A DNA stretch of 64,000 nt from Lentzea aerocolonigenes (lineage in GTDB: Bacteria > Actinomycetota > Actinomycetes > Mycobacteriales > Pseudonocardiaceae), in NCBI RefSeq assembly GCF_000974445.1, contig NZ_BBOJ01000024.1:62001-126000 (forward strand). Reading direction: 5' to 3'. The position numbers were made by a program, and so were the translations under genes. The notes beneath the pieces were generated by a model, which saw nothing but the letters and a program-made list of their open reading frames with translations, had not been told where the DNA came from and ran no database searches. The stretch's first letter is position 1, and every line of letters begins with the position of its first letter. This document shows, piece by piece, positions 3,001-24,873 of the stretch.

Positions 3001-3940
3001 CCTGCTGCTCGCCGGTCTCCATGTCGACGAGTGCCTGCTCGGACGCCGCACGCTCCATCCGCGTGAGGTCCAGCTCCTGGGTGAGCTTCGACTGCTCGCG
3101 GCGCAGCTTCGCCACCGACTTCTCGGCGGCCTCCAGCCGTTCCGAAGCCGACCGCAGCCCACCGAACGCGTAGTCGCTGTAGGTCTTGAGGAACGTGCTC
3201 AGCGCACTGTCCGCAGAGGACAGTCGCACGATGTTCTCGCGGATCGACTCCAGGTCGTCGAACGACGTCGCGAGCTGCTCGACCATCGTCTGGTCCAGCG
3301 GCGGCAGGGCGTCGCTCAGGATCTGTTCGAGCTGCCCCTCCAGCACCTTCAGGCCGACGTCCGGGTTGCGCAGCGTCCGCTGGAGGTGCAGCAGGTCGCC
3401 GTACCGGGCCGCGGGCACGCCGTAGACGCTCTCGGCGATCTTCGCGCGGAACGCGGGCTCCTCGAACATGCAGTCCGCGCCGATGAGGTCGCGCAGCTGT
3501 GCGGGGCCGTGCGGGACGCGTTCCGGACCGGCGAGCTGGAGTTCCGTGCCGACGCGCATGGGCGTGACGAAGCGCCACGAGTCCGTGATGGCCTGCGAGG
3601 TCTTGGAGGCCTTCACGCCGAGACCGCACGTCAGGTACTCGTTGCCCGAGTGGTCGGCGGCCTCGCGGATCAGCTCGACCCACGCGTAGCCGATGCGGTT
3701 CGGGCCGCCGTCGTAGTCGTCCAGCATGAGGCGCCGGATGCTGACCGTGTCGAAGCCCTTGGAGCCGAGCTGGCGCAGGTCGCCGTCGAGGCACAGCGGC
3801 AGCAGCAGCTCCAGCGTGCGGGACTTGCCGGAACCGTTGGTGCCCTGGAAGATCGCGCGGCCACCGGAGAAGTCGAACGTCTGCTCGGTGTACTGCCAGA
3901 TGTTGACCACGCCGCCGCGGTGCAGCCGCCACCTGCTCAT
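1..3940 (-). CDS. jetC: Wadjet type III JetC, SMC-like ATPase (TIGR02680 family), 3' end outside window
   Basis: Motor subunit of a Wadjet anti-plasmid system: a MukB/SMC-like ATPase thought to extrude loops on circular plasmid DNA so that JetD can cut it. The visible 1,313 codons begin MSRWRLHRGGVVNIWQ. Walker A is GTNGSGKS at residues 33-40. The long middle is rich in Glu, Arg, Ala and Leu, as expected for coiled coils. Near the window edge are an ABC signature (LSSGE) and a Walker B (RLVLLDEAF), followed by DMDWVITWPSGWGVSDKIP, typical of the family's C-terminus, so only a short tail is missing. The start codon overlaps the jetB stop as ATGA, so translation is probably coupled. Gene order jetA-jetB-jetC places the JetD (TIGR02679, Toprim-like) gene just left of the window. 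The family assignment rests on remembered motifs. Confidence 0.93.
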   Translation of the reverse strand, partial: MSRWRLHRGGVVNIWQYTEQTFDFSGGRAIFQGTNGSGKSRTLELLLPLCLDGDLRQLGSKGFDTVSIRRLMLDDYDGGPNRIGYAWVELIREAADHSGNEYLTCGLGVKASKTSQAITDSWRFVTPMRVGTELQLAGPERVPHGPAQLRDLIGADCMFEEPAFRAKIAESVYGVPAARYGDLLHLQRTLRNPDVGLKVLEGQLEQILSDALPPLDQTMVEQLATSFDDLESIRENIVRLSSADSALSTFLKTYSDYAFGGLRSASERLEAAEKSVAKLRREQSKLTQELDLTRMERAASEQALVDMETGEQQAEETIAALKELPAFRDLQDLKTRENLVAEKRSSAVAALETAHRQRAQEDAAVDNVLRLLRRLAEDLSAADALSDPLREHLRLAGMDADLAPDVPQVPPAEATVTTDSVRAKPDPEAGPLPIERRVPPAAATEDVLAALTSVVDQTSGIASLARQRGALALSLHEQAIALDSQQREVESLRQKTRDAQHGATEATALRNQEMQELAEVVQTWLEQVEVWTSSGPLLDERPAETLVLPQTADPAAAKTLSTTAREWAGPLVQAARDAAHAFTQQRTELRARLDTLDEELVGLRSGNERVPVPGQYTSAARDTTKGAPFYRLVDFAPSLTDPERAGLEAALQASGLLDAWVTAHGGELDDVLAVPRDAVDGRSLSEFLVPAVEGSPVPESLVADLLRAVSLDDMTTTGDWRTGVLTGRWVKPEAEFIGAGAREAARGRRIAALEEELAELRARLGTAEDELARAHEHVATWEAHLAAFPGDGELIAKHSRVQAAEESAARAQQRTFELRDALENANARLEAARSELTRQAGDAGLPSDTEALRQARAAASEAQRTADLLGDAVKRRCQGTISDLTDASHRYHEAVADRRTAEADADTRCVDYAAQAGTLAELTDAVGGEAKEISEQLTSLEKSRKKMREDLKGVRESITTAREQAAKLEALLETNSTQVADASEALDRASANFQATVRAPGLLAAAFPEAPEEALVRQAIAETPDRRGGTEATVIAKLQALQTALAGSHDIAAEQHAGLLTVTVTGEEGAKPVAVAARQVTTKLAEQRGFLDEQYQGIFADYLIRDLAEWLRGQITVAEDLTKRMNEVLSQARSSQGVHVKLAWKSSSALDDQTRQALALVRLPFGERTPEQDATLRRVFTERIENERDTHSGGYAEILSRALDYRTWHQFTVTVADTGPDGNPRERRLRQLSSGETRLISYVTLFAAAASFYDAVSNEFDPLRLVLLDEAFERLDDPTIARMLGLLVDLDMDWVITWPSGWGVSDKIPRMHI

Positions 3941-5127
3941 GACACGTTCTCCTCGTCGAACAGGGACCAGCTCGGCACTTCGGGCACGACAACGGGTTCC
4001 GGTTGTTCTCGTTCGGGATCGCCGTCGGGGGACGGCAACCAGCGGTGCGCGGCCGCGCTGATGGACCAGCCTTCGTCGGTCGGGACGGCCAGACCCATGC
4101 GGCGCAACAACTCCGTCACCTCGGCGACCAGCCGGTCGAGGTCGTCGGTGAACTGCTTCGACCACGCGGCGGGGTAGTCCTCGACCAGCGCGGCGCAGAC
4201 CTCGCCGATGCGTTCGGTGGTCACGACGTGCCGTGCGGGCGGGTCTTCCTCGTCGCCCTCGACCAGATCGGGGAGCGCGAGAAGCGCGATGCGGGCGACC
4301 GTCGAGACGCCGGGGAACGACAGGTCGGTCAGGAAGTCCTCGGGGTCGGCGGCGAGCACGCCCTCGACGCGGCACTCGGTGTAGAGGCCGAAAGCCTGCT
4401 CCAGCAACGCGGTTTCCTTGCGCTGGTTGCGGCGCAGCCACTCCGCCTGGTCGTCCGGCAGATCCGCGTAGAGCACCAGCGGCGTCTCGACGAGCTTGCG
4501 CCGCACGGCGTGCTCGACGCCGCGCGGACCGGGGCGGGCAGCCAGTTCGACGAGGTGAGCTGGGTCCTGGGCCTCACCGACCGGGCCCGTCACGAGCTGG
4601 CCCAGCAGGTCGGTGTCGATCGTGATCAGCGCTTCCTGCGGGATCATGTCCTGCGCGACCGAACCCTCGGTTTCCTGCAGCACGCCAAGGGAAACGAGGT
4701 GGCGCAGCGCGGCCGTGAGCGCGCGTCGTTCGGTGACGTCGTCCGGTGCGTCGATGCCTGCTTCCACTGCGGCGGAACGGATGTCGGCGACCAGGCGGGA
4801 CAGCAGCGTCTGGCGGCCGATGCCCGTGAGGACCGCGAGCGTGAGCGCCAGGTACGCGTAGCCGCGCGGGGACATGCTGAGCACGCCGCGGGTGTCGTCG
4901 TGGCCGGGGCCGGACTTGTAGAGGCGCGCGAACCGTCGTTCGACGACGAGCCGGTAGCCGAGCAGGCCCGCGAACAGGTCCTGGAGGGTCGCGCGGTGCC
5001 GGTAGACGAGGCTGAGCAGCTCGCCGTCGGGGCCGTCGCTGCGGAGCATTGGCCTGCGCAGCAACGTTCGGGCGCACCGCACCACGTTGGCGGCGTCGAT
5101 GTCGGAGAGGTTGTCCAAGTGGTTCAT
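3937..5127 (-). CDS. jetB: Wadjet type III JetB (DUF2398 / TIGR02678 family)
   Basis: Predicted MukE-like winged-helix subunit that bridges the kleisin JetA and the ATPase JetC. The protein is 396 residues and begins MNHLDNLSDIDAANVVRCAR. It contains the family-typical RRPMLRSDGPDGELLSLVYRHRATLQDLF and SMSPRGYAYLALTLA stretches. The reading frame stays open upstream of this start, but the ATG at 5127 overlaps the jetA stop codon as ATGA and matches the expected N-terminus, so I chose it. The 3' end overlaps jetC in the same way. The tight overlaps indicate one polycistronic mRNA with fixed subunit ratios. No sign of damage. Confidence 0.9.
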   Translation of the reverse strand: MNHLDNLSDIDAANVVRCARTLLRRPMLRSDGPDGELLSLVYRHRATLQDLFAGLLGYRLVVERRFARLYKSGPGHDDTRGVLSMSPRGYAYLALTLAVLTGIGRQTLLSRLVADIRSAAVEAGIDAPDDVTERRALTAALRHLVSLGVLQETEGSVAQDMIPQEALITIDTDLLGQLVTGPVGEAQDPAHLVELAARPGPRGVEHAVRRKLVETPLVLYADLPDDQAEWLRRNQRKETALLEQAFGLYTECRVEGVLAADPEDFLTDLSFPGVSTVARIALLALPDLVEGDEEDPPARHVVTTERIGEVCAALVEDYPAAWSKQFTDDLDRLVAEVTELLRRMGLAVPTDEGWSISAAAHRWLPSPDGDPEREQPEPVVVPEVPSWSLFDEENVS

Positions 5128-6596
5128 TGCTTCAGCGCCACCGTCGCGTCGTGCAGCGTGAGCGTCCCGGCGGCGGAGCGGATCTGCGTCGTGGTGCCGT
5201 GGGCGATCTCGAGTTTGAGGCCGCGCACGGGATCGCTGGCCGATCCGCTGTCCTGCGGCGAGTCGCGCTGGGCCATCGCGAGCGTCAGCAGCTCGCAGAA
5301 GACCTCCAACGCGCCGTGCGTCAGCGTGGTGTTCTCCAGGTTTCCGGCGGCCTTCGTCAGTTCCGCGACGTGTCGTGCGCGGATCTCGTCGGCCTCCCTG
5401 GCCTCCGCGAGCAGCGACTGCTCGGTCATCGGGTCGTCGAGGATCCGCGACGGCCGTCCACGCGCGCCTCGGTCGCCTCGGGTCCGCACTGAAACCGTCA
5501 CGTCGCAGACCGGTCCGTCGCGCCACGGGGTGCGCTCGTTGTCCGAGTCGTGTTCCGGCGCGGGGGAGAGGTGGCGGGCGCTGTAGAGGCCGAACGCGGC
5601 CGCGTAGATCTCGTGGGCTTGTTCACGCGTCGAGTTGTCGAACCAGCTCGCGAGCTTCAGCAGCTCGGCGCGCCGTCCGGGCAGCAGGCCGCCGCCGGAG
5701 GTCGCTCGCTTGACGCTGGCCAGGAGGCTGCCGATCGCGCGGGCCGTGGCCTCGCGCAGCGCCGTGACCTGGCTCGGGCGGCCGGGCCTGTCGACGAACC
5801 AGTCCGTGAGCTCCTGCCAGTCCTCGGGGGTGCGGCCGCGGGCGCGTTCGACGCTGGCGCCGAGGTCGGTGCTGAGCAGCCTGAGCAGTTCGGAGCGGGC
5901 CTTGGTGAGGCGGGCCAGGGCTTCGGCGATCGGGGGCGTGTACTTCAGGACGTCCTCGACGACCCGCTGGATGTACTCGACCAGCAGGTTCCGGAAGCCC
6001 GCGATCTCGTCCGGCGCCAGGTGGTTCCGCGTCACGACCTGGCCGAGATAGGCGTAGAAGTCGCGCACGGTCGCGGCGAGCTCGGCGTGCTGCAGGAACA
6101 GGGTCGTGACGCGTTCGGCGAGGAGTTCCTTGGTCTTGTCGCCCTCGTTGAGCAGGGCCACGGAGAGGGATCCGCCCAGCTCGTTGAGGCCGCGTTCAAT
6201 GGCGGGGAGGAGCTCCCTGGACACCTCGCGGGCGCCTTCGGGGACCCGGAGCAGCTCGTCGACGTCGCGCTGGACGCGGACGGCGAGCTTCGACACCTGG
6301 TACCGGACGCTGCCGTGCTGGAACTCGGCGATGCTGGCCGCCACGACCTCCCTGCGCCCCTGGACGAGGTTGCCCCACTCGACCAGCTGCTTGAGTCGGT
6401 TGATGACGTTCTCGATGCGGCTCTCGCCGGGCTCTACGCGGCCTTCTCTTTCCTGACCCGCCAGCGCTCCGGCCACCTCGCCCGCGGACAGGTCGGCCAG
6501 CAGCGTGGAGGTGAACAGCCGCATGATCGCCAGGTACGTGCGCTGGTGATCGCGCGCGTCCAGATAGGCGTACAGCTTCAGCCGCTTGTGCTCCAC
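5124..6596 (-). CDS. jetA: Wadjet type III JetA, kleisin-like subunit (DUF2397 / TIGR02677 family)
   Basis: First gene of the leftward Wadjet operon. It encodes a 490-residue protein of the DUF2397 family, the MukF/kleisin counterpart that links the two JetC heads. The N-terminus (MEHKRLKLYAYLDARDHQRT) is the family's usual opening. The rest is largely helical, with a region around residues 150-290 rich in Glu, Leu and Arg. The start lies 72 bp from the divergent cobD gene, so the operon promoter must fall in that short gap or inside the cobD 5' end. The 3' end overlaps jetB by 4 bp. The protein looks intact. Confidence 0.9.
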   Translation of the reverse strand: MEHKRLKLYAYLDARDHQRTYLAIMRLFTSTLLADLSAGEVAGALAGQEREGRVEPGESRIENVINRLKQLVEWGNLVQGRREVVAASIAEFQHGSVRYQVSKLAVRVQRDVDELLRVPEGAREVSRELLPAIERGLNELGGSLSVALLNEGDKTKELLAERVTTLFLQHAELAATVRDFYAYLGQVVTRNHLAPDEIAGFRNLLVEYIQRVVEDVLKYTPPIAEALARLTKARSELLRLLSTDLGASVERARGRTPEDWQELTDWFVDRPGRPSQVTALREATARAIGSLLASVKRATSGGGLLPGRRAELLKLASWFDNSTREQAHEIYAAAFGLYSARHLSPAPEHDSDNERTPWRDGPVCDVTVSVRTRGDRGARGRPSRILDDPMTEQSLLAEAREADEIRARHVAELTKAAGNLENTTLTHGALEVFCELLTLAMAQRDSPQDSGSASDPVRGLKLEIAHGTTTQIRSAAGTLTLHDATVALKQ

Positions 6597-13667: not shown

Positions 13668-14021
13668 GTGACAGCCGGTAAGAATCGCGCGTGGTGGGTC
13701 TGCGGTGGCGCCATCGTCTGCGGTGGCGCCGTGTGGGCGTTGCTGCGGTTCGGCGTCCCGGTCGTCTTGTCCGACGCGAACCACCCGGCCCGTCCGGCCC
13801 TGGAAGCCCTGAGCTGGATCGCCGGAATCGCGAGCCTGCTCGTCGCCGTCGTGGCATTGATCGTGGCGTTGCGCCAGAGCGGCTCCAGCACTCCGACCGC
13901 GACCCACGGCGGAATCGTCTTCACCGGCAACGTCACCGGCGGCTCCGGCTCGGGCCCGACCACCGGCGTCCACGTCGAACACCCACCGGACCCTCCCTCG
14001 CCGGCGCGGCCCCAGGCCTAG
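13668..14021 (+). CDS. Small membrane protein preceding an NB-ARC/TPR ATPase
   Basis: A 117-residue protein with two predicted membrane helices (WWVCGGAIVCGGAVWALL and WIAGIASLLVAVVALIVAL) and a Gly/Ser/Thr- then Pro-rich tail (FTGNVTGGSGSGPTTG). No family recognised. It ends 38 bp before the GTG start of the STAND ATPase, in a different frame. The tail motif FTGNVTGG resembles FAGSVTGA just inside the downstream frame, so the two may be a split or frameshifted form of one membrane-anchored ATPase, or a coupled pair. It is the first gene of the accessory stretch. Confidence 0.65.
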   Translation: MTAGKNRAWWVCGGAIVCGGAVWALLRFGVPVVLSDANHPARPALEALSWIAGIASLLVAVVALIVALRQSGSSTPTATHGGIVFTGNVTGGSGSGPTTGVHVEHPPDPPSPARPQA

Positions 14022-14059
14022 CCACGCCGGCCACGCCGAGGGCCTCGTTCGCCGGCAGC

Positions 14060-16096
14060 GTGACCGGCGCGACCGCGGTCGGCGTGGTGCAGGGCGACCT
14101 GGTCTTGGGCGGAGCAGCGGTCCCGGACGTGGCTTCGGTTCAGGTGTCGCCCGCCTTGAGCAGGTTCCCCGCCAGCACCGAGCAGTTCGTCGGCAGGTCC
14201 ACCGAACTGCAGCGCCTCGATGACGCCCTGGCGCAGTCGGGCCGCGCTGCGGTAGTGGCGGTGCACGGCCTGGGCGGCGTCGGCAAGAGCACGCTCTCCT
14301 CCGAGTTCGTCCGCCTGCACGCTCAGCGCTACAGCGTGGTCTGGTGGATCACCGCCGACTCACCGACCGCGATCGACACCGGCCTCGCCGACATGGTGAC
14401 GACGTTCGCCCCTCACGCCGCAGACCTCCCGCTGGAGCAACGCACCGAGCTCGCCGTGCAGTGGCTGGCGACGCACGACGGCTGGCTGCTGGTGCTCGAC
14501 AACCTCACCACGCCGGGCGACGTGGCAGGCCTGCTCGAACGCGTCCGCTCCGGCGCGGTCCTGATCACCAGCAGGCAGGGCACAGGCTGGCGCGGCGTGA
14601 CGACCGTGTCGTTGGACGTGTTGTCGCCGCAGCAGGCCGAGGAACTGCTGTCCAAGATCGTGCGGCTGGACTGGCCTTCCGCGGACCTGACCGGTGCTTC
14701 GGAACTGTGTGAGGAGCTGGGCTGGTTGCCGTTGGCCGTCGAGCAGGCTGCGGCCTACATCGGTCAGGCTCACATCACCCCTGGTGACTACCTGGAGCTG
14801 CTGAAGCGGTATCCCGCTCGGATGTTCACCGCGACGGCCGAGGGTGGCGACGCCCAGCGCACGATGGCGCGGGTCTGGCACGTGACGTTGGACCGCCTCG
14901 CGGACACCCCTCTGGCGGGCCGGCTGCTGCGGCACTTGGCCTGGTACGCACCGGACGGGATTCCCCGTGCTTTCCTGGCGTTGCAGTTCGAGGAGCCGGA
15001 TCTGACGGAGGCGCTGGGCAGGCTGGCGGCGCACAGCATGATCACGCTCGGCGTGGACACGATCTCGGTGCACCGCCTGATCCAGGCCGTCTCACGCACG
15101 CCCGACCCCGATGATCGTCATCGGCTGCCGGAGGACGTGGCCGCCTCCCGTGATGCAGCTTGGGTCTGTCTCGCAGAGGTGCTGAAGGAACTTGACGCTC
15201 GCGATCCTGCGGCGTGGCCTGCCTTCCGATTGGTTCTGCCGCACATCCGGGCGATCTTCGCCAACACGAGTTCGGACGATGATTCCCTTGAGGCTTGTTG
15301 GACTCTCAACGAGTTGGCCCGCTTCGTCGAGAACCAAGGGGATGTCGCGACGTCCATCAGCTACAAGATCCGTGCCCTCAGCGGCTACGAACGTCTCTGT
15401 GGCTCTGAGGACCAGGCCACGCTGATCATGCGGAACAACCTGGCATACGCCTACAAGGCGGTGGGCGATCTGGATCGGGCGATCCCCTTGTTGGAGTTGA
15501 CCCTCGCTGACACCGAGAGACTGCTGGGCGCTGATCACCCGGAAACTCTGAACCAGAGGGGCAACCTCGCAAGCTGCTACGGGGAGAAAGGCGGCTGGAC
15601 CGAGGCGATTCCGCTGATGCAGTCGGTGCGTGCTGATCGGGAGAGGGTGTTGGGACCTGATCATCCGCAGACGCTGCGGTCGAGGAACAACCTGGCACAC
15701 GCCTACCAAGCGTCTGGTGATCAAGTCCAGGCGATTGAGCTGTACGAGACCAATCTTGGTGACTACGAGCGAGTGTTGGGGGCAGACCACCCGGAGACGT
15801 TATTCGCGAGGAACAACTTGGCCTGTGCGTACGCGGATGGCGGTCAAACGGGTCGAGCTGCTCGTCTGCTCGAGGCGGTCCTGGAAGTCCAGAATCGGGT
15901 GCTCGGACCGGAACATCCAGACACGCTGGTGTCAGCGATGAACTTTGCATCTGCTCGTGCCTCGACCGGTGACCTGGAACAGGCGATCCGGCTGTTGGAG
16001 TCGGTCCTGGCCACCAGCGAGCGGGTGCTGGGGCCTGACCACAAACGGACCAGAGTCGTACGTGACCGTCTGAGCGAGGTTTTGGAAAAGTTTTAG
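14060..16096 (+). CDS. NB-ARC (STAND) NTPase with C-terminal tetratricopeptide repeats
   Basis: Signal-transduction NTPase, 678 residues from the GTG chosen here. An FVGRSTELQRLDDAL entry motif leads into the NB-ARC core: Walker A GLGGVGKST, Walker B WLLVLDNL, the sensor VLITSRQG and GWLPLAVEQAAAYIG. A winged-helix-like stretch follows to about residue 370, then at least five 42-residue TPRs of the kinesin-light-chain type (LGADHPETLNQRGNLASCY and variants). Such proteins act as sensors or anti-phage defence switches. No effector domain is fused N-terminally, so the preceding membrane protein is the natural candidate. The start is uncertain: no ribosome site precedes GTG 14060, and the frame is open further upstream. 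The TPR half uses less GC-biased codons than the core genes. Confidence 0.85.
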   Translation: MTGATAVGVVQGDLVLGGAAVPDVASVQVSPALSRFPASTEQFVGRSTELQRLDDALAQSGRAAVVAVHGLGGVGKSTLSSEFVRLHAQRYSVVWWITADSPTAIDTGLADMVTTFAPHAADLPLEQRTELAVQWLATHDGWLLVLDNLTTPGDVAGLLERVRSGAVLITSRQGTGWRGVTTVSLDVLSPQQAEELLSKIVRLDWPSADLTGASELCEELGWLPLAVEQAAAYIGQAHITPGDYLELLKRYPARMFTATAEGGDAQRTMARVWHVTLDRLADTPLAGRLLRHLAWYAPDGIPRAFLALQFEEPDLTEALGRLAAHSMITLGVDTISVHRLIQAVSRTPDPDDRHRLPEDVAASRDAAWVCLAEVLKELDARDPAAWPAFRLVLPHIRAIFANTSSDDDSLEACWTLNELARFVENQGDVATSISYKIRALSGYERLCGSEDQATLIMRNNLAYAYKAVGDLDRAIPLLELTLADTERLLGADHPETLNQRGNLASCYGEKGGWTEAIPLMQSVRADRERVLGPDHPQTLRSRNNLAHAYQASGDQVQAIELYETNLGDYERVLGADHPETLFARNNLACAYADGGQTGRAARLLEAVLEVQNRVLGPEHPDTLVSAMNFASARASTGDLEQAIRLLESVLATSERVLGPDHKRTRVVRDRLSEVLEKF

Positions 16097-16117
16097 AACC
16101 CGCTCAAACCCCAGGTG

Positions 16118-16137
16118 AGCGGCTTTTAGAAGCCGCT
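16118..16137 (+). terminator. Hairpin terminator after the NB-ARC gene
   Basis: Perfect 8-bp stem AGCGGCTT / AAGCCGCT with a TTAG loop, 22 bp after the NB-ARC stop codon, followed by a T- and C-rich stretch (GCTTTCTTTC). It separates the ATPase gene from the propeller operon. Confidence 0.75.
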
Positions 16138-16215
16138 TGAGCTTTCTTTCAGCCACCCCCGCCAAGCTTCTCCCATCGCAAGGAACAAGCCGATGAGAGA
16201 AACCTGGTGGGGGAA

Positions 16216-17088
16216 ATGAAGAACGTTCTCGGTCGCGTAATCGCAGCCTCGCTCATCACCGGAATCGCATTGGCCGGCAGCCAGATGGCCGCCAACGCCG
16301 GTGAGCTCCCAGCCGGCGCCGAGCGGATCGCCATCCTCCAGAACGGCACGCTGTCGGCCAAGGAAGGCAGCCTCTTCTCCTCCTGGACCACGCTGCAGGG
16401 TGACGTGCAGAAGTTCGAGGTCGCAGGCAACCTCATCGGCGCTCTGAACACCGACGGCACCCTGCACGTCAAGGAGGGGTCGCTCGGCGCCACGTGGACC
16501 GAGCAGGCCCGGAACGTCAAGGACTTCCGCCTGTCGAGCAACCGCATCGCGGTCCTGCGCACCGACGGCACGCTGGTCGTCAAGGAAGGCCTCCACGGCG
16601 CGTTCGTCGAGCAATCCGCCGACGTCACCGACTTCGAGGTGACCAACAACCGGATCGGCGTGGTCACCAAAAACGGTGAAGCGCACGTCAAGCAGGGCGA
16701 TCTCTTCGCGGCCTGGACCCAGCAGGCGTCCGGCGTCAAGGACCTGGAGCTCACCGGCACCCGTGTCGGCGTCATCCGCACCGACGCCACCGCCGCGGTC
16801 AAGGACGGGGCCGGTGCGTTCGTGGAGCAGGCGAGCGGCATCAGGGACCTGGAGCTGTCCGGCGACCGCATCGGCGTCGTGTCGGACGGCGGTGACGCCC
16901 TGGTCAAGGACGGTCTGTTCGGCGCCTGGTCGCAGCAGGCGTCGAACGTCGCGGACCTGGAGCTCACGAGCACCCGCGTCGCGGTGCTGTTCACCGACGG
17001 CACCGCGGCCGTGAAAAGCGCGCAGGGCTCTTTCGCCGACCAGGCCTCCGGTGCTCAGCAGATCGGTCTCGCCGCGCCCTCCGCGTGA
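16216..17088 (+). CDS. Secreted seven-bladed beta-propeller protein made only of 37-residue repeats
   Basis: A 290-residue secreted protein. After a signal peptide (MKNVLGRVIAASLITGIALA, cleaved near ANA-GE) the whole mature chain is seven tandem repeats of about 37 residues, each shaped like RIAVLRTDGTLVVKEG..W.EQ..NVKDFRL. Seven repeats of this beta-rich type suggest a closed seven-bladed propeller of the tachylectin/PLL-like lectin kind; the fold is inferred, not seen. The same repeats appear in the next two genes fused to cell-wall hydrolases, so this protein may be a free carbohydrate- or wall-binding partner. The ATG overlaps the stop of an 8-codon upstream reading frame (16193). A GTG three codons earlier is an alternative start. 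Confidence 0.85.
   Translation: MKNVLGRVIAASLITGIALAGSQMAANAGELPAGAERIAILQNGTLSAKEGSLFSSWTTLQGDVQKFEVAGNLIGALNTDGTLHVKEGSLGATWTEQARNVKDFRLSSNRIAVLRTDGTLVVKEGLHGAFVEQSADVTDFEVTNNRIGVVTKNGEAHVKQGDLFAAWTQQASGVKDLELTGTRVGVIRTDATAAVKDGAGAFVEQASGIRDLELSGDRIGVVSDGGDALVKDGLFGAWSQQASNVADLELTSTRVAVLFTDGTAAVKSAQGSFADQASGAQQIGLAAPSA
16321..17085 (+). repeat. Seven tandem 37-residue coding repeats (propeller, gene 1)
   Basis: About 111-bp units encoding R[IV][GA]V(L/V)-x-(T/N)DG-x-x-x-VK-(E/D)-x(4-6)-W-x-(E/Q)Q-A-x-x-V-x-D-(F/L)-x-(L/V). Repeat starts are seen at ERIAIL, NLIGAL, NRIAVL, NRIGVV, TRVGVI, DRIGVV and TRVAVL. Confidence 0.85.
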
Positions 17089-17141
17089 AAAAGAAAAACC
17101 CCCGAAAAACTCTCCCGAGCAATTCCGGCAAGGAGCCGATG

Positions 17142-18590
17142 ATGTCCACGATCAAGAACGTTCTCGCCCGACTCACCGCGGCCACTCTCGTCACCGGAAT
17201 CGCGCTCACCGCGATGCAGGCCACCGTGTCCGCCGGCGAGCTCCCGTCCGGCAACCACCGTCTCGGTGTGCTGAGCAACGGTGCCCTCGAGGTCAAGGAG
17301 GGCAATCTCTACGCCAGTTGGGTCGAGGAGATGGGAGGCGGGGTCGAGAAGTTCGACATCGCCGGTGACCGCATCGGTGTCCTCACGACCGACCACAAGC
17401 TCTTCGTCAAGCAGGGCAACCTGTGGGAGAGCTGGACGGAACAGGCCCAGAACGTCAAGGACTTCCGCCTCACCGGGAGCCGGATCGGCGTCCTGCGCCA
17501 GGACTCCACGGTCGCGGTCAAGGAAGGTGACCTCAACGCCACTTGGGTCGAGCAGGCCGGCGGCGTGAAGGACCTCGAGCTGTCCGGGAACCGCGTGGGC
17601 GTCGTGCTCGACAACGGCGTCGCGACCGTCAAAGAGGGCACTCTGTACTCCTCGTGGGTCGATCAGATGGGTAACGTCGCCGACCTCGAGCTCTCCGCAG
17701 ACCGGGTGGGTGTCCTGCGCACCGACGGCACCGTCGCGGTGAAGGAGACCAGTCTCTGGTCGAACTGGGTCGAGCAGATCGCCAACGTGAAGAAGCTCGA
17801 ACTGTCCGGCTCCATGATCGGTGTGGTCACGAACGACGGCCTCGCCACGGTCAAGGAGGGCAACCTCTACGCGACGTGGGTCAACCAGATCTCGGACGTG
17901 GCGGACCTGCAGATCGCCGGTGACCGGATCGGCGTGCTGACCACCGGCGGCACGGTGACGGTCAAGGCGGGCGGCCTCTACGGCTCGTGGGTCAACCAGT
18001 ACGGCGGCGCGCAGAGCTTCCGGCTGGCCGCGGCGGTCGGAAACCAGGGCGGGCGGCACGTCTCGCAGCAGGACATCGTCAACATCTACGGTTCCGCTTA
18101 CGCCACCGACACCGTCGCGGCCGGTCTGACGGACCTGAACGCGGAGATGCAGGCGGCGGGCATCACCTCGCCGACGCGCAAGGCGGCGTTCCTCGCGACC
18201 CTCAAGCACGAGAGCGGGTTCCGCTACAACGCCGGTGAGGCCGGCAACGGCGCCGTCTACAAAGGACGCGGCTTCGTCCAGCTGACCGGTGACTTCAACT
18301 ACCGCGCGGCGGGCGGCTACCTCGGCCACGACTTCCTGAGCCACCCGGAGGACGCCGCGAAGGTCGAGTGGAGCGCCAAGATCGCCCGCTGGTACTGGAC
18401 CGTCGCCCGCAACATCAACGCCTCCGCGGACGCCTACGACATGGGCGGCGTCGGCCGTGCGATCGGTTACTCGTACGACCTCGACCCGACCGAGTCGCTG
18501 AACCGCTGCGCCTCCTACAAGAAGGCCCTCGCCTACTTCAACGGCGGCTCTCTCCCCGTCGCCGAGAGCTCCATCAAGTGCACCCGCTGA
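17142..18590 (+). CDS. Secreted propeller-GH19 lysozyme/chitinase fusion
   Basis: A 482-residue secreted enzyme. Signal peptide (MSTIKNVLARLTAATL...VSA), then seven 37-residue propeller repeats (about residues 39-300), then a glycoside hydrolase family 19 domain (about 305-482). The GH19 catalytic acids are likely Glu357 in LKHESGFRYN and Glu366 in NAGEAGNG; the downstream GRGFVQLTGDFNYRAAGGYL block is typical. GH19 members of this compact type cleave chitin or peptidoglycan; which one is not decidable from sequence. ATGATG starts at 17139 and 17142; the second has better spacing from GGAG. A GTG at 17085 overlaps the previous stop but would spoil the signal peptide. Middle gene of a three-gene operon. 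Confidence 0.9.
   Translation: MSTIKNVLARLTAATLVTGIALTAMQATVSAGELPSGNHRLGVLSNGALEVKEGNLYASWVEEMGGGVEKFDIAGDRIGVLTTDHKLFVKQGNLWESWTEQAQNVKDFRLTGSRIGVLRQDSTVAVKEGDLNATWVEQAGGVKDLELSGNRVGVVLDNGVATVKEGTLYSSWVDQMGNVADLELSADRVGVLRTDGTVAVKETSLWSNWVEQIANVKKLELSGSMIGVVTNDGLATVKEGNLYATWVNQISDVADLQIAGDRIGVLTTGGTVTVKAGGLYGSWVNQYGGAQSFRLAAAVGNQGGRHVSQQDIVNIYGSAYATDTVAAGLTDLNAEMQAAGITSPTRKAAFLATLKHESGFRYNAGEAGNGAVYKGRGFVQLTGDFNYRAAGGYLGHDFLSHPEDAAKVEWSAKIARWYWTVARNINASADAYDMGGVGRAIGYSYDLDPTESLNRCASYKKALAYFNGGSLPVAESSIKCTR
17257..18036 (+). repeat. Seven tandem 37-residue coding repeats (propeller, gene 2)
   Basis: Repeat starts are seen at HRLGVL, DRIGVL, SRIGVL, NRVGVV, DRVGVL, SMIGVV and DRIGVL. Each carries VK(E/Q)G near its middle and an aromatic W before the (E/N)Q pair. 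Same consensus as the flanking genes. Confidence 0.85.
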
Positions 18591-18622
18591 CCCCCTTCGC
18601 CCTGAGCTTCAAGGAGATCACC

Positions 18623-19996
18623 ATGTCCAAGCGCACCGTCACCGCCGTTCTCGCCGCCTCCGCCCTGGCCCTGCTCGGCATCATCCCGGCCAGTGCCGAC
18701 ACCCGCACCGACGTCCGCGACCTGGCCGCCGCGAACCTCGGCAAGACGACCTGCAGCACGAACAGCCTCGGCGGAACGGGCTTCATGGACAGCTGCCGGC
18801 TCCAGCACTTCTGGTGCGCGGACTTCGCGAGATGGGTGTGGGGCAACCGCGACCTCAAGGTCGACCGCCTCAGCCCCGCGGCCGGGAGCTTCTACCTCTA
18901 CGGCGAGCAGAACGGCACGCTGCACAACGACTCGTCCTACGTCCCGCAGGTCGGCGACGCCGTGGTCTTCAACTACTACGGCGCCGGCCGGGCCGACCAC
19001 GTCGCCCTCGTCGACGCGGTCAACTCCAACGGCACCATCCGCACCATCAACGGCAACTTCGGCGGCACCAGCGCCATGAACTCGACCGTCCAGTACGCCA
19101 TCGGCGGCGGCCGCGTCGGCCAGTCGGTGGCCGGCCAGACCATCTCGGCGTTCGTCAGCCCCGCCGGCGTGAGCGCGGTCCGCCCGATCAAGTCCCGCAT
19201 CGGCGTCCGCTTCAACGACTCCTCGGTGCACGTCAAGGAGGGCAACCTCTACGACGGCTGGCTCAACGAGTACGGCGGCGGTGTGGTGAAGTCCGAAGTG
19301 GACGGTGACATGATCGGTGTCCTGACGGCGTCCGGTGACCTGTTCGTCAAGCAGGGCAACCTCTACGAGACCTGGTACAACCAGGCTGGCGGCGTGAAGG
19401 ACTTCTCGCTGGAGTCGTCGAAGGGCCGCGTCGGCATCGTGCGCACCGACGGCACCGTCGCGGTGAAGGAAGGCGGCCCGCAGGGCACCTGGGTCGAGCA
19501 GATGGGCAACGCCAAGGAAGTCGAGCTCTCCGGCGACTACCTGGGCGTGGTCAGCAACGACGGCACCGCGTACGTGAAGAAGGGCAACCTGTACGAGTCC
19601 TGGACGACGCAGCTCGGTGACGTCGCCGACCTGGAGATCTCCGCGAACGGCGACCGCATCGGTGCCCTGCGCACCAACGGTTCGCTCACCGTCAAGGACG
19701 GCGGCCTCTACGGGTCGTGGGTCGAGCAGACCAGCAACGTCAAGGACTTCGACCTCTCCGGTGACTACATCGGCGTCGTGTTCAACGACGGTCTCGCCAC
19801 GGTGAAGCAGGGCACCCTCTACGCGGGCTGGATCAACCAGCTCAGCGCCGCCAAGGCCATCGAGGTCGACGCCAAGGCCGGACGCATCGGTGTTCTGCAG
19901 GACAACGGTTCGCTGACCGTGAAAGAAGGCGGCCCGTACGGCTCCTGGGTCAACCAGACCAGCGGCGTCGCGGACTTCCAGCTGACGAACTACTGA
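18623..19996 (+). CDS. Secreted CHAP amidase/peptidase-propeller fusion
   Basis: A 457-residue secreted protein in the reverse domain order to its neighbour: signal peptide (MSKRTVTAVLAASALALLGI), a CHAP domain (about residues 28-170), then seven 37-residue propeller repeats to the end. CHAP catalytic residues are Cys65 in FWCADFARWVW, His126 in DHVALVDA and Asn143 or Asn145 in INGNFGG. CHAP enzymes cut peptide or amide bonds in peptidoglycan. Start ATG has AAGGAGA upstream, 33 bp after the GH19 stop. With the propeller-GH19 protein it could open both glycan and peptide parts of a wall. The stop is followed by a strong terminator. Confidence 0.9.
   Translation: MSKRTVTAVLAASALALLGIIPASADTRTDVRDLAAANLGKTTCSTNSLGGTGFMDSCRLQHFWCADFARWVWGNRDLKVDRLSPAAGSFYLYGEQNGTLHNDSSYVPQVGDAVVFNYYGAGRADHVALVDAVNSNGTIRTINGNFGGTSAMNSTVQYAIGGGRVGQSVAGQTISAFVSPAGVSAVRPIKSRIGVRFNDSSVHVKEGNLYDGWLNEYGGGVVKSEVDGDMIGVLTASGDLFVKQGNLYETWYNQAGGVKDFSLESSKGRVGIVRTDGTVAVKEGGPQGTWVEQMGNAKEVELSGDYLGVVSNDGTAYVKKGNLYESWTTQLGDVADLEISANGDRIGALRTNGSLTVKDGGLYGSWVEQTSNVKDFDLSGDYIGVVFNDGLATVKQGTLYAGWINQLSAAKAIEVDAKAGRIGVLQDNGSLTVKEGGPYGSWVNQTSGVADFQLTNY
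19194..19993 (+). repeat. Seven tandem 37-residue coding repeats (propeller, gene 3)
   Basis: Repeat starts are seen at SRIGVR, DMIGVL, GRVGIV, DYLGVV, DRIGAL, DYIGVV and GRIGVL, with the same VK(E/Q)G and W.(N/E)Q positions as the two upstream genes. Three of the repeats carry a one- or two-residue insertion. Confidence 0.85.
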
Positions 19997-20006
19997 TTCC
20001 AACCGA

Positions 20007-20047
20007 ACGCGAAGAGGGGCCGTCACCGCGACGGCCCCTCTTCGCGT
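20007..20047 (+). terminator. Strong hairpin terminator closing the propeller operon
   Basis: Perfect 18-bp stem beginning ACGCGAAGAGGGGCCGTC with a 5-base loop, 10 bp after the CHAP-propeller stop. No T-run follows, as is common in high-GC actinomycetes. Confidence 0.88.
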
Positions 20048-20187
20048 GGGCCGAATGCCCTATTGCGCGCACGGCGAGCGGCGCTACGTTCGAGTGGCAG
20101 GACCGCTTCCGGCGAAATGGGGATGGAGCCGAGCGGCAGTTGTGCGGACCTCTGCGCGTCCGCACCTGGGGGAATCGGGGGAGCCCG

Positions 20188-23100
20188 ATGAGGGCTACTT
20201 GTGCTGTCTTGCTCACGGGTGTGCTGGTGCTGTCCAGCGCGCCCTTCTCGGCGGCCGCGGCGGCCGCGATCGACAGACCCGTGGCCGAGCTGTTCGGCGC
20301 CCAGCCGAGCTTCGGCATGGCGGGCGACGGGGTCAACACCGCCACCGGCAACGTCACGCGCACGTCGGTCGACCTGCGCTTCGGGCCGCTCGCGCTGGCC
20401 CGCACCTACAACTCGCTCGACCGCTCGGACCGTGCTCTCGGCGCGGGCTGGAGCACCACCTACAGCGCACATCTCGTGCTGGGGGACGACGGATCGGTCG
20501 CGTACCACGGGGACGACGGGCGGGTGCTCACGTTCGTGCCCGGCGACGGTGGTGGTTTCCGGCGGCCGCAGGACCTCGACGCGGATCTGCGGCGCGAGCC
20601 CGACGGCCGTTTCTCGTTGCGGGACAACCGGGGCGGCAGTTGGACGTTCGACACCTCCGGCAAGCTGCAGGAGGTCGCGGCCGAGGGCGAACGGACGTCG
20701 CTGGGCCGCGACGGGGAGGGCAGGCTGACGTCGGTCGCGCACTCCGGTGGCGAGCGGCTGACCTTCACCTACGACGCGGGCCGCCTGACGAAGGTCGAGT
20801 CCGGTGACGGACGGGCGGTGAAGTACGACTACTCGCCGGAGGGCAGGCTCGCCGCCGCGACGTCACCGGAAGGTGCGGTGGCGCGGTACGAGTACACGCC
20901 GGCCGGACGTCTTTCGGCCGTGTTCGACGCCGAGGGCCGACGCGTCGTCGCGAACGTCTACGACGAGCGGGATCGCGTGCGGCACCAGGACTTCGTGGCA
21001 GGGGGAGGAATCGACCTCGCCTACGACGACCCGAACGCCATCACGACGGTCTCCAGCACCGGCAACGGTGCCCGTGCCGTCTACCAGCACTCCAACGCCG
21101 GCCGGTTGGTGAAGGCCACCGACCCGGCCGGCAAGTCGGTGAGCCAGTCGTTCGACGACAACGGCAGGCTCGTCGAGGTGGTCGCGCGCGGCGGGGCGAA
21201 GGTGCAGCTCGGCTACGACGGACGCGGCAACGTCGTGCGGCGCACGACAGGGGAGATCACGACGTCGTTCTCCTACGACGACCGCGACCGGCTCACCAGC
21301 GCGACCGACGCGGGGCAGGGCACCACGCGGTACGAGTACGCGGGCGAGAGCCGGGTGCCGTCCGCGGTGACCGACCCCAACGGCGCCACGACCAGGAACA
21401 CCGTCGTGGACGGGCTGATCACCGAGACCGTGGACCCCGCGGGCGGCAAGACCACGTTCGGCTACGACGCCGGACGCCGGCTCACCTCGGTCACCGACGG
21501 CCTCGGACAGGCCACGAAGTTCGGGTACGACGCCGCCGGACGGCGCACCACCACGACGTCGCCGCAGGGCCGGGTGTCCACAGTGGAGTACGACGTCGCC
21601 GGCCGGATCACCGCGCAGGTGACCCCGTCCGGCAAGGTCACGCGCAACCGGTACAGCGGATCCGGGCTGCTGCAGGACACGACCGATCCCGCCGGCGGCG
21701 TCACGGCCCACGCCTACGACGGCGCAGGTCAGCGCATCGCCACCACAGACCCGTTGGGGCGCAAGAGCACCTTCACCTACGACGGTGACGGCAACGTCGC
21801 GACGAGCACCGATCCGGCCGGTGCGGTGAGCAAGTACGGCTACGACCAGTTCGGCCGGCTCAGCACCTCGACCGCGCCCACCGGTGCGGTGGTGCGCTAC
21901 TCCTACGACGCCGACGGCAGGCAGTCCGAACGCGCCGAGCCCGCCGGCACCGTGGTGACCGGCTACGACGACCGCGGCAACGTCGTCTCCACCACCGACG
22001 CCGCGGGACGCACGACGCGGTACACCTACGACGCCCGCAACCGCGAGACCAGCCGCACGGACCCGACCGGGGCGGTGTGGCGGACCGGCTACGACGCCGC
22101 CGGGCACGTGACGTCGCGGACGGACCCGCTGGGCGCGGTGACGAAGTACGAGTACGACGCCGCCGGTCGGCTGACGGCCGTGATCGACCCGCTCGGCAAC
22201 AGGACCGAGTACCGGTACGACGCGGCCGGACGTCTGACCGAGACCCTCGACCCCGAGGGCGGTGTCACGCGCAACACCTACGACGCCGACGGGCGCAGGG
22301 TCGCGCAGACCACGCCCGCGGGACTGGTGACCCGCTTCACCTACGACGCCGACGGACGGGTTCTGACCGTCACCGGCCCGCGGGGCGGCGTGACGAAGTA
22401 CGAGTACTCCGCACGGGGTGACCTGATCACCACGACGAGCGCCACCGGTGCGGTGCGGCGCACCGAGTACGACGCCGCCGGGCAGATGATCGCCGCGGTC
22501 GACCCCAACGGCGGCCGCACCGGCTACGGCTACGACCCGGCCGGAAACCTGACGTCGTTGACGGATCCGAAGGGTGCGACCACGAAGTTCGCCTACGACT
22601 CGGCGGGCAGGCAGACCTCGTCGACGGATCCGCTGGGACGCACCGCGAAACGCGAGTACGACGCGTCCGGCAACCTCGTCGCGGTCACCGAACCGGACGG
22701 CAAGGTGCTGCGCATGGAGTACGACGCCGTCGGTGAGCTGGTCAAGCGCAGCGCGGGCGACGGTTCGGTGGTGTCCTTCGGCTACGACGCGGCCGCACGC
22801 CGCACGTCCATGACCGACGGCACCGGCAAGCACGAGTACGGCTACGACGCGGCCGGGCGGCTGACCACCGTCACCGAGCCCGACGGCGCGAAGTTCACCT
22901 CGTCCTACGACGCCGCCGGCCGCAGGACCGCGGTGCAGTACCCGGACGGGTTGAAGATCGACTACCGGTTCGACCGCAACAGCAGGCTCGTCGGGTTGAA
23001 GGACCCGAAGGCGGGCGAGGCGAAGTACGCGCTCGACGCGGACGGCAGGCTGGTCGCGGAGGACCTGCCGGGCAAGTGGGCGCGGAAGTACGCCTACACC

Positions 23101-24873
23101 GGCGGCCTGCTGACGCGGTACGAGGAGTCGGGGCCCGGCAGTTCGGCGCGGATGACCGCGTTCACCAGGGACGCCGACGGCCGCGTGCTCACGGAGACCG
23201 AGGGCAGGGGCCACGACCTCGACGCCGAGGGCAACCCCGTGCGCGAGTACCGCTACGACCCTGCCGGGCAGCTGCTTTCGGTGGGCGGCAAGCACGTCGA
23301 GCCGTTGCGGGCCACCTACGACCCGGCGGGCAACCGCACCAGCGTCGTGCGCGGCAAGACCACCACGAAGCTCACCTACGACGCGGCCGACCAGCTGACC
23401 GCGGCCGAGACCGGCGACCGGCACACCGACTACTCCTACGACTCCGTGGGCAGGCTGCTGGAGAGCCGGGCGGGCGAGAAGTCCGACCGCGGTGAGCGGA
23501 CCACGTTGACCTACAACGGTTTCGGTCTGCTGGTGGCGTCCGCGACGACGCGGCACCACAAGACCGAGCGCACGCAGGCGACCTACAACGGTGACGGCCT
23601 CCTGGTCGCGCTCACGCAGTCCGAGGGCGACCAGGACGACAGCGGCAAGCATCAGCGCACGTCCCGGTACCGGTGGAGCGTGGGCGACCCGGTGCCGCAG
23701 GTGCTGTCCCAGCGCGAGGACGGCCGGCAGGAGGACAGCGGGAACGGGGAAGCGGACTTCGTCTACGGCTACGGCCGCGTGTTCGCGGACACCCGGCACA
23801 AGTCGGCCACGTTCTCCCGCGACGCGTACGGCTCGTCCGTCCGAACAGGACAGACGCACGACTGGGTGCAGGCCGACGGCTACGACGTCTTCGGCGCACC
23901 GCAGAAGGGTGAGGACGCGGACACGTCCAACCCGGACAAGCCGAAGTTCGGCTACCGGGGTGAGCTCGCGCTCGGGCAGGCCGTGTACCTGCGGGCGAGG
24001 TTCTACGAGACCGGCACCGGCCGGTTCCTCAGCCGCGACCCCGTGGCGACGAAGGCGGGGCAGGCCAACCCGGTGAGCGCCTACGTCTACGGCAACAACG
24101 ACCCGGTGAACTTCACCGACCCGCTCGGCGAGTGGGCGATCACCGACGCGTTGTTCCGCGCGGTGGCGGCGATCCTGGCGGGCCTGACGCCCAACTGCCC
24201 GCCGTCGACCAACGCGATCACCAGGCACGACAAGTGCTTCCAGAACCACGTGTACCGCACCAGGGGCTACGTCCCGGAGGACTGCCTCGACGCGGACTAC
24301 AGCTGCCTGGACGCGCTGTGGCACGGCCGTCAGCCGGAACGGGCCTCGCAGGCGTTCACGATCCACGAGCTGAACGTGCGGCGGCAGAGCTGGTGGGACA
24401 ACCTCTGGGACAACAAGGGTTTCAGCACGACGATCAGCGAGAAGGTCGACTGGGAGGTCGGCCCGCCGGACAACTACATGGACACCTTCCGCATCGACAT
24501 CGTGACCGAGGAACGCAACATCTACGAGGTCAAGCGCTGGCGCGGCCCGGCGACCACGACCGAGGTCGACGCCCAGCTCGGGCACTACCAGTACCTCGCT
24601 TTCTGGTACGACAACGTGCACTTCGACCGCGGCCGGGAGCTGATGGACTGGGCGGACACGTACCACGTCAGCGAGGGCTTCTGGGACTTCCTGACCGGCG
24701 GTAAGACGATCTACGTCTGGGGTCTGGAGAACCCGGCGGGCCACATCTACTTCGAGGAGAAGGACAAGACCCCGGAGCGGGTGCGCAGCAAGGTGTGGCG
24801 GCAGAAGTTCGAGGAGGGGTTCCCGATTCCCGTGCCGATCCCGATTCCCGTCCCCGTGCCGGTCCCGGTGTAG
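20188..24873 (+). CDS. RHS/YD-repeat polymorphic toxin with PD-(D/E)XK-type nuclease C-terminus
   Basis: Secreted RHS protein of 1,561 residues. Signal peptide (MRATCAVLLTGVLVLSSAPF), a DUF6531-like entry domain (GDGVNTATGNVTRTSVDL), then dozens of YD repeats (YDAAGRLT and variants) to about residue 1240. The RHS core follows (LRARFYETGTGRFLSRDP at about 1270-1290, ending at NFTDPLGEW). The C-terminal 245 residues differ: Asp1437, Glu1447 and Lys1449 in FRIDIVTEERNIYEVKRW plus Q1463-x3-Y1467 match the PD-(D/E)XK nuclease signature with its QxxxY helix. I infer a DNA- or RNA-cutting toxin released from the RHS shell. The protein ends in a Pro-Ile/Pro-Val repeat tail. Start ATG has GGGGGAG upstream. 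Confidence 0.9.
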   Translation: MRATCAVLLTGVLVLSSAPFSAAAAAAIDRPVAELFGAQPSFGMAGDGVNTATGNVTRTSVDLRFGPLALARTYNSLDRSDRALGAGWSTTYSAHLVLGDDGSVAYHGDDGRVLTFVPGDGGGFRRPQDLDADLRREPDGRFSLRDNRGGSWTFDTSGKLQEVAAEGERTSLGRDGEGRLTSVAHSGGERLTFTYDAGRLTKVESGDGRAVKYDYSPEGRLAAATSPEGAVARYEYTPAGRLSAVFDAEGRRVVANVYDERDRVRHQDFVAGGGIDLAYDDPNAITTVSSTGNGARAVYQHSNAGRLVKATDPAGKSVSQSFDDNGRLVEVVARGGAKVQLGYDGRGNVVRRTTGEITTSFSYDDRDRLTSATDAGQGTTRYEYAGESRVPSAVTDPNGATTRNTVVDGLITETVDPAGGKTTFGYDAGRRLTSVTDGLGQATKFGYDAAGRRTTTTSPQGRVSTVEYDVAGRITAQVTPSGKVTRNRYSGSGLLQDTTDPAGGVTAHAYDGAGQRIATTDPLGRKSTFTYDGDGNVATSTDPAGAVSKYGYDQFGRLSTSTAPTGAVVRYSYDADGRQSERAEPAGTVVTGYDDRGNVVSTTDAAGRTTRYTYDARNRETSRTDPTGAVWRTGYDAAGHVTSRTDPLGAVTKYEYDAAGRLTAVIDPLGNRTEYRYDAAGRLTETLDPEGGVTRNTYDADGRRVAQTTPAGLVTRFTYDADGRVLTVTGPRGGVTKYEYSARGDLITTTSATGAVRRTEYDAAGQMIAAVDPNGGRTGYGYDPAGNLTSLTDPKGATTKFAYDSAGRQTSSTDPLGRTAKREYDASGNLVAVTEPDGKVLRMEYDAVGELVKRSAGDGSVVSFGYDAAARRTSMTDGTGKHEYGYDAAGRLTTVTEPDGAKFTSSYDAAGRRTAVQYPDGLKIDYRFDRNSRLVGLKDPKAGEAKYALDADGRLVAEDLPGKWARKYAYTGGLLTRYEESGPGSSARMTAFTRDADGRVLTETEGRGHDLDAEGNPVREYRYDPAGQLLSVGGKHVEPLRATYDPAGNRTSVVRGKTTTKLTYDAADQLTAAETGDRHTDYSYDSVGRLLESRAGEKSDRGERTTLTYNGFGLLVASATTRHHKTERTQATYNGDGLLVALTQSEGDQDDSGKHQRTSRYRWSVGDPVPQVLSQREDGRQEDSGNGEADFVYGYGRVFADTRHKSATFSRDAYGSSVRTGQTHDWVQADGYDVFGAPQKGEDADTSNPDKPKFGYRGELALGQAVYLRARFYETGTGRFLSRDPVATKAGQANPVSAYVYGNNDPVNFTDPLGEWAITDALFRAVAAILAGLTPNCPPSTNAITRHDKCFQNHVYRTRGYVPEDCLDADYSCLDALWHGRQPERASQAFTIHELNVRRQSWWDNLWDNKGFSTTISEKVDWEVGPPDNYMDTFRIDIVTEERNIYEVKRWRGPATTTEVDAQLGHYQYLAFWYDNVHFDRGRELMDWADTYHVSEGFWDFLTGGKTIYVWGLENPAGHIYFEEKDKTPERVRSKVWRQKFEEGFPIPVPIPIPVPVPVPV

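Follow-up and report, generated by a model that had tools for sequence, protein, structure and literature searches.

Co-encoded candidate wall-cutting enzymes with a shared predicted propeller in a three-gene operon of Lentzea aerocolonigenes

What would three neighbouring genes do together if each codes for a putatively secreted protein with the same repeat domain, once alone, once joined to a GH19 domain and once to a CHAP domain? The question arises from a stretch of 64,000 nucleotides (here called the window; positions 62,001 to 126,000 of contig NZ_BBOJ01000024.1) of the 10.7 Mb genome of Lentzea aerocolonigenes. We favour, with a probability of about one half, the explanation that these genes encode a secreted two-enzyme kit for peptidoglycan lysis with an exchangeable, shared wall-binding module, a kit that is often linked to a SARP regulator and is probably directed against other bacteria. 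The shared propeller would most likely steer two complementary enzymes onto bacterial cell walls. Fold (as a prediction), domain content, conservation and linkage were computed; binding, catalysis, synergy and regulation are our reading of them. The genes and their parts are:

16216-17088, plus strand: protein 1 (290 aa), putative signal peptide and stand-alone predicted propeller of seven repeats (repeats 16324-17079)
17139-18590, plus strand: protein 2 (483 aa), putative signal peptide, predicted seven-repeat propeller (17259-18035) and GH19
about 18054-18587, plus strand: endolysin-like GH19 domain, C-terminal in protein 2
18623-19996, plus strand: protein 3 (457 aa), putative signal peptide, CHAP and predicted seven-repeat propeller
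18809-19057 and 19196-19993, plus strand: CHAP (Pfam stretch) and propeller of protein 3

All three genes lie on the plus strand, with gaps of 50 bp between genes 1 and 2 and of 32 bp between genes 2 and 3. Longer starts are possible for gene 2, and 17139 was picked on the signal peptide and on AAGGAG, which precedes genes 2 and 3. The putative Sec signal peptides of all three proteins, read by eye, agree with the secretion proposed in a preliminary description of this DNA.

For the repeat search, the profile applied to each protein was made solely from the other two. Seven successive repeats were found in every protein (residues 37-288, 41-299 and 192-457 of proteins 1, 2 and 3), each above 10 bits and spaced by 35-39 residues. 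Whole-protein scores were 247, 369 and 319 bits, whereas 1000 shuffles per protein never exceeded 6.8, 8.4 and 9.8 bits, respectively. The single family of seven tandem repeats of about 37 residues that had been claimed earlier is thus borne out. No Pfam, NCBIfam or PHROG family covers these repeats; the matches obtained were weak, below the cut-off where one exists and scattered over unrelated families, and were ignored.

By prediction, the 37-residue repeats form a seven-bladed propeller, as had been proposed. In the AlphaFold model of protein 2, residues 41-300 make up seven four-stranded blades (28 strands, block pLDDT 86-98), and residues 35-294 can be superposed on complete PLL folds of seven blades. 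For protein 3 the model is reliable in blades 3-6 alone; its CHAP part and its blades 1, 2 and 7 are uncertain. The fold predicted for protein 2 resembles PLL lectins, RCC1 and BLIP-II. The PLL/DUF346 lectins of Photorhabdus and relatives share the seven-bladed fold but have only 10-16% identity to the window propeller in structural alignments, and their chains of about 340-350 residues exceed its length of about 260. DUF346 (PF03984) had no match in window proteins P0001-P0003 (E<=1) or in A1 (E<=0.1), while the L118 proteins, as a control, gave 7 PF03984 repeats with E-values of 1e-108 and 1e-122. The Foldseek matches include Laccaria tectonin 2, without a tectonin sequence match in Pfam; we take the repeat length to be like that of tectonin repeats. 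Propellers of the BLIP-II (Streptomyces exfoliatus) and RCC1 type show 14% identity to the window propeller, and we know of no enzyme partner for them. BLIP-II, which binds beta-lactamases, is presumably the closest secreted actinomycete propeller known. That propellers can read wall sugars is suggested by a staphylococcal phage receptor protein that combines a five-bladed propeller with a putative cavity for GlcNAc (PMC6115969). If our explanation holds, the window propeller would represent a new candidate family of wall-binding folds.

The domain architectures first described were recovered: protein 1 is a propeller alone, and Pfam places GH19 at the C-terminus of protein 2 (PF00182, E 1.2e-6) and CHAP at the N-terminus of protein 3 (PF05257, E 2.8e-11), both above its cut-off. 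Among PHROG families, GH19 matches endolysins with E-values of 9e-26, 3e-18 and 3e-15, which are not strictly comparable with those from Pfam. Among solved structures, its best matches are endolysins by name (4ok7, 9hqw, 9hnu) at about 1e-11, with chitinases from 7e-8. The first two, which we take to be SPN1S and mycobacteriophage LysA, match the GH19 of protein 2 in their catalytic domain; protein 2 differs from these phage endolysins in its shorter HES-GRG stretch, its signal peptide and the propeller as an extra domain. The two glutamates in HESGFRYNAGEAGN...GRG, which we assume to be of the GH19 catalytic type, are kept in 21 of 21 members read (19 by pattern, two by eye), as are the active-site Cys and His motifs of CHAP in 14 of 14. 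Since GH19 matches endolysins above chitinases, and since the GH19 and CHAP residues are kept, peptidoglycan and not a fungal wall is the likely target of both domains. Protein 2 matches 686 phage records, the GH19 part being covered among the matches listed, and the propeller of protein 1 has no match among 50,697 phage records. A phage origin of the propeller was rejected, as two pattern-based scans of viral contigs (50 and 148 stretches) gave no confirmed case.

The arrangement is conserved. One scan of genome contigs found four loci, all with a GH19-propeller gene followed by a CHAP-propeller gene, and the stand-alone gene comes first in the two that are from Lentzea. Among 390 Pseudonocardiaceae genomes surveyed with two profiles, 34 and 36 contain the propeller (37 in union); within the genus it is present in 6 of 24 genomes. 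An adjacent glycan cutter and peptide cutter sharing the same propeller type occur in 23 of the 37:

trio, 4 genomes: G000, G239, G249, G213
GH19 and CHAP pair, 9 genomes: G141, G107, G061, G073, G065, G063, G072, G227, G327
GH19 and NlpC/P60 pair with a longer propeller, 7 genomes: G059, G017, G013, G219, G248, G151, G079
NlpC-like and lysozyme-like pair, 3 genomes: G217, G148, G150
GH19 and a decayed CHAP-like stretch, 1 genome: G385
three stand-alone propellers, 1 genome: G080
trypsin-like domain with propeller, 6 genomes: G066, G110, G123, G126, G128, G136
lysozyme-like and peptidase-like propeller genes at contig ends, 2 genomes: G229, G244
CHAP-like protein (by eye) with diverged repeats, 1 genome: G127
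fragments or weak matches, class not assigned, 3 genomes: G007, G040, G163

GH19 and CHAP were named by comparison with the window domains, and by Pfam for those scanned. Pfam supports the name NlpC/P60 in 7 of 7 cases and trypsin in 2 of 6, the other trypsin domains being named by likeness. For G217, G148 and G150, the lysozyme-like and NlpC-like domains were assigned solely from motifs; Pfam gave no match in the proteins of G217 and G148. At the contig ends of G229 and G244, off which the propeller genes run, the lysozyme-like domain is SLT_3 by Pfam (L060) or by eye (L080) and the peptidase-like one was read by eye. In the NlpC/P60 pairs a 299-position profile covers nearly the whole propeller in 14 of 14 proteins, and eight repeats were counted in L063.

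The trio thus recurs in three further genomes (protein 1 orthologues in L014, L017 and L053) and the GH19 and CHAP pair in nine more, so that the genes are kept together as first proposed, and the repeats are of one fold family by prediction. A chance neighbourhood of the three genes is ruled out by this conservation in other genera. L052 was rejected as a CHAP-propeller-GH19 fusion; its open frame merely extends upstream over a decayed CHAP-like stretch (31 bits) that precedes a normal signal peptide. Class-wide, 4 of 394 genomes have a propeller match, one being the window's own and the other three holding stand-alone propellers, and three Streptomyces clavuligerus plasmid records also carry stand-alone propellers (one read: pSCL4). 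The trypsin-like proteases with the same propeller type (L071, L072, L073, L075, L076, L078) have no SARP neighbour and may need a different propeller function.

A second aspect is the linkage to a regulator. Many of the operons lie beside a SARP with winged-helix, BTAD and NB-ARC domains, and with TPRs in 4 of 5 scanned. With an N-terminal SARP probe, a SARP was found directly beside 15 of the 23 pairs and beside none of the 6 trypsin-propeller loci. The window's own genome has one more CHAP-propeller gene, whose product shares 85% identity with protein 3; it is situated 3' of an orthologous SARP and 5' of a small NlpC-like gene that lacks an evident signal peptide. Twenty SARP orthologues of at least 64% identity were collected, a partial row (G239, 162 of 411 residues) having been dropped. 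Eleven adjoin a propeller gene or set; eight lack a pair (G243, G382, G383, G384, G071, G075, G128, G240), and in the first of these genomes the SARP and the small NlpC-like gene remain while the operon is absent. The last one (G241) lies beside a different pair, NlpC-like and lysozyme-like (both by motif), which shares an FG-GAP propeller at 79% identity.

The lysozyme-like domain is widespread (383 of 390 genomes). In 10 of the 30 loci with its best matches, an adjacent gene on the same strand carries the same type of C-terminal module; with flanks of 1.5 kb, absence in the remaining 20 is uncertain. The ten are:

FG-GAP with NlpC-like: L109 (the G241 locus)
FG-GAP with M23: L111 (Pfam), L110 and L115 (motif)
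FG-GAP with a protein having an Fn3-like N-terminus (by eye): L113, L114
DUF346 with NlpC-like: L118 (Pfam), L130 (likeness)
the window's propeller type with NlpC-like: L119 (the G217 locus)
LGFP with NlpC-like: L134 (Pfam on L146)

The pairs bearing LGFP, FG-GAP or DUF346 follow the same plan of two enzymes and one shared module as the window set, but differ from it in module families and catalytic combinations. Both DUF346 pairs adjoin a divergent SARP, and there was no SARP match at L139-L143 (FG-GAP) or L146 (LGFP). L139-L143 are also clusters of neighbouring secreted-looking genes that include a lysozyme-like protein, some with FG-GAP modules, and an M23-motif protein occurs within those of L139, L140 and L143. 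Neither swapped catalytic domains, nor swapped propeller families, nor the regulator linkage could be shown by the preliminary description, which overall is partly supported.

We suggest that the kit works as follows. All three proteins would be exported by the general secretion route, as their signal peptides indicate. Each propeller would act as a wall-binding module, in view of its fold relatives and of the position that LGFP, DUF346 or FG-GAP takes in related pairs. Protein 2 would cut the glycan strand by its endolysin-type GH19, and protein 3 the stem peptide or an amide bond by its CHAP domain, to judge from the families and the kept catalytic-type residues. If the same or a similar wall feature is bound, both types of bond would be cut at one place and the wall would dissolve faster than with one enzyme by itself. 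The stand-alone propeller would most likely be a free binder that serves as adaptor or competitor, either tuning binding or protecting the producer, and this is the weakest step. The SARP, which stands beside the kit in about two thirds of the paired loci though not in the window, probably switches it. The patchy spread, the SARP link, the empty or swapped SARP sites and the exchange of binding modules tilt us towards use against other bacteria; a weapon fits them better than a housekeeping autolysin.

Several observations weigh against this explanation. The three propellers of the operon are only 43-55% identical (proteins 1 and 2, 51%), and in a tree of 46 propellers most cluster with those that have the same catalytic partner and not with those of their own operon, so that the three may not bind the same ligand. 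Stand-alone propellers form one clade (100/100), and the L057 GH19 propeller falls with the CHAP group. Grouping by operon was rejected as a general pattern, being seen solely for L062, where the GH19 and CHAP propellers are sisters (100/99). Within NlpC-like/lysozyme-like pairs, propeller identity reaches 97% (L074) and 90% (L106). By a simple count, gene 2 has a dN/dS of 0.16-0.22, against 0.39-0.50 in gene 1 and 0.33-0.56 in gene 3; gene 1 thus looks to be under purifying selection, while evolving faster than gene 2.

As to ligand and substrate, RCC1-type folds and 3qhy_B score almost as high as PLL lectins, and the folds of RCC1 and BLIP-II bind proteins. BLIP-II is presented as a protein-binding propeller in the available part of PMC9146315. 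GH19 also matches a PHROG chitinase family (E 6.8e-10), and PF00182 is named chitinase class I. A survey of Lentzea genomes, which found GH19 common to all its Lentzea species, counts it under chitin degradation (PMC9120177, accessible portion).

With regard to use as a weapon and to the SARP, no immunity gene was recognised among the neighbours, for which no systematic search was made. The SARP probe had no match at the window, L057, L062, L065, L067, L068 or L106; L014 has only a SARP tail at a contig edge, and the L083 SARP lies tail-to-tail. The SARP sites are not all independent, since L054, L055, L056, L058 and L059 have one synteny block in common. The orthologues without a pair suggest that these SARPs may have other duties. 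SARP-type genes also abound, with 15-96 BTAD matches in each of 12 genomes, from which, assuming about 9000 genes, a chance SARP neighbour is estimated in roughly 1% of cases.

The main rival is self-wall remodelling, in which the same enzymes, bound to the wall, would work on the peptidoglycan of the producer itself as it branches, sporulates or germinates, and the stand-alone propeller would limit autolysis as a competitor. We regard it as possible, if clearly short of probable. Actinomycetes use secreted wall hydrolases in development, a free binder fits such tuning, and the relatives outside the family are stand-alone propellers only; a role in wall remodelling has been proposed for the seven-bladed BLIP-II of Streptomyces culture fluid (PMC9146315, same part). 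Presence in just 37 of 390 genomes of the family and 6 of 24 of the genus, with empty and swapped sites, would however be unusual for a developmental core function. Moreover, no Rfam family, such as the c-di-AMP riboswitch, lies near the operon above its gathering score in the window and 22 fetched loci, where the sole match is a tRNA in L017.

Nutritional scavenging, that is, digestion of dead wall debris in soil by enzymes that the propeller holds in the manner of carbohydrate-binding modules, appears unlikely. The proteins are secreted, modular and patchily distributed in a soil genus, and the lack of a recognised immunity gene would suit such a role. In an all-against-all comparison of the fetched loci, however, the neighbours common between genera are the SARP, the small NlpC-like gene and local synteny genes; no uptake gene was noticed among the part of the neighbours that is annotated, and SARPs are typical of antibiotic clusters.

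We consider it improbable that the propeller is a protein-binding module of BLIP-II/RCC1 type that joins the three proteins in a complex or inhibits a partner. The near-equal fold scores and the presence of three propellers in one operon, which could associate, would allow this, but LGFP, DUF346 or FG-GAP holds the same position in related pairs, and there is one propeller per enzyme without a constant non-propeller partner. Least probable of all is the fungal-wall option of the preliminary description, a chitin-lysing set with GH19 as chitinase, for which the chitinase names and the listing in Lentzea speak, but against which stand the profile and structure-sequence matches favouring phage endolysins and the pairing with CHAP, NlpC/P60 or other peptide cutters, for which we know of no role on chitin.

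The lysis kit directed against other bacteria may belong to a wider class, which we put forward only tentatively: often SARP-switched cassettes in which co-encoded glycan and peptide cutters share one exchangeable module (37-residue propeller, FG-GAP, DUF346 or LGFP), a module swap would reset the prey range while two-bond cutting is kept, and extra stand-alone propellers would shield the producer as decoys. While peptidoglycan hydrolases that are secreted and carry binding modules are known, a paired two-bond cutting set with a shared propeller, in which both the catalytic and the binding halves are exchanged, seems to be new: titles and abstract openings in an open-access library, which lacks most subscription papers, described no such pairing of wall cutters around one propeller type.

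By analogy, the closest functional parallel is PlyC, and the two enzymatic domains of its PlyCA are presumably GyH and CHAP. In this streptococcal phage endolysin PlyCA is joined by an octameric wall-binding PlyCB, which gives the same functional triad of glycan cutter, CHAP and separate wall binder as in the window (available part of PMC10604209). The window set differs from PlyC in being cellular and in consisting of three separate chains, each with signal peptide and propeller. A survey of polymorphic toxins predicts that NlpC/P60 toxins degrade walls, and its accessible text does not mention the arrangement of the window set (PMC3482391). If our explanation is correct, such operons would offer pairs of bacteria-lysing enzymes already matched by nature, a testable example of how module exchange alters specificity, and a candidate direct link from SARP regulators to protein rather than small-molecule antibiotics.

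Further features adjoin the operon:

13691-16096 (start 13691 or 14060, uncertain), plus strand: NB-ARC and TPR gene upstream of the operon, without a SARP DNA-binding domain
16116-16139, plus strand: hairpin with a short T-rich tail between this gene and the operon (z -2.7)
20007-20047, plus strand: strong hairpin just 3' of gene 3 (-42.2 kcal/mol, z -6.7)

Of the two hairpin terminators claimed earlier, the one at 20007-20047 stood as a strong hairpin (0 of 200 shuffles as good), though without a T-run; it is likely a terminator or an end-of-transcript stem. The one at 16116-16139 is weaker (2 of 200 shuffles as good), and the number of terminator-like sites on both strands of 15-21 kb, two including this one, does not exceed that in shuffles (mean 3.4). 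The claim of one promoter was not substantiated: a consensus search found no sigma-70-like promoter for the operon, so that the claim rests on gene spacing only. The NB-ARC and TPR gene occupies the place where many relatives carry the SARP.

Directly 3' of the operon lies a gene for a large RHS/YD-repeat protein with a short distinct C-terminus (20140-24873, start uncertain), possibly a polymorphic toxin; no such gene was called as the next one 3' in L015, L017, L053 or L054, but a sequence like a HINT toxin tail was read by eye in L017 at 3-683. The small NlpC-like protein kept 3' of the operon elsewhere (L017 9940-10362, L013 7602-8081, L054 8164-8604) has no evident signal peptide, and it is still there in L097 (5064-5477), which lacks the operon. 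In three genomes, proteins that consist mostly of tandem short repeats of the DSVRIT type are encoded close to the SARP synteny block (L013 14071-14583, L099 416-1081, L103 509-1099). A region end with tRNA and an RNase HI-like gene is common to the window (44557-45621) and the L017 locus of L. albidocapillata (14430-15449), at about 24.5 kb and 4.5 kb from the operon, respectively; the operon site is a variable region adjoining a tRNA. Elsewhere in the window, a very large open frame (46877-54970, 2697 aa) follows shortly 3' of the RNase P RNA gene (46308-46685), and three minus-strand genes at 1-6596, one of which codes for a large protein whose N-terminal region has a P-loop, may by resemblance be a Wadjet-like defence set.

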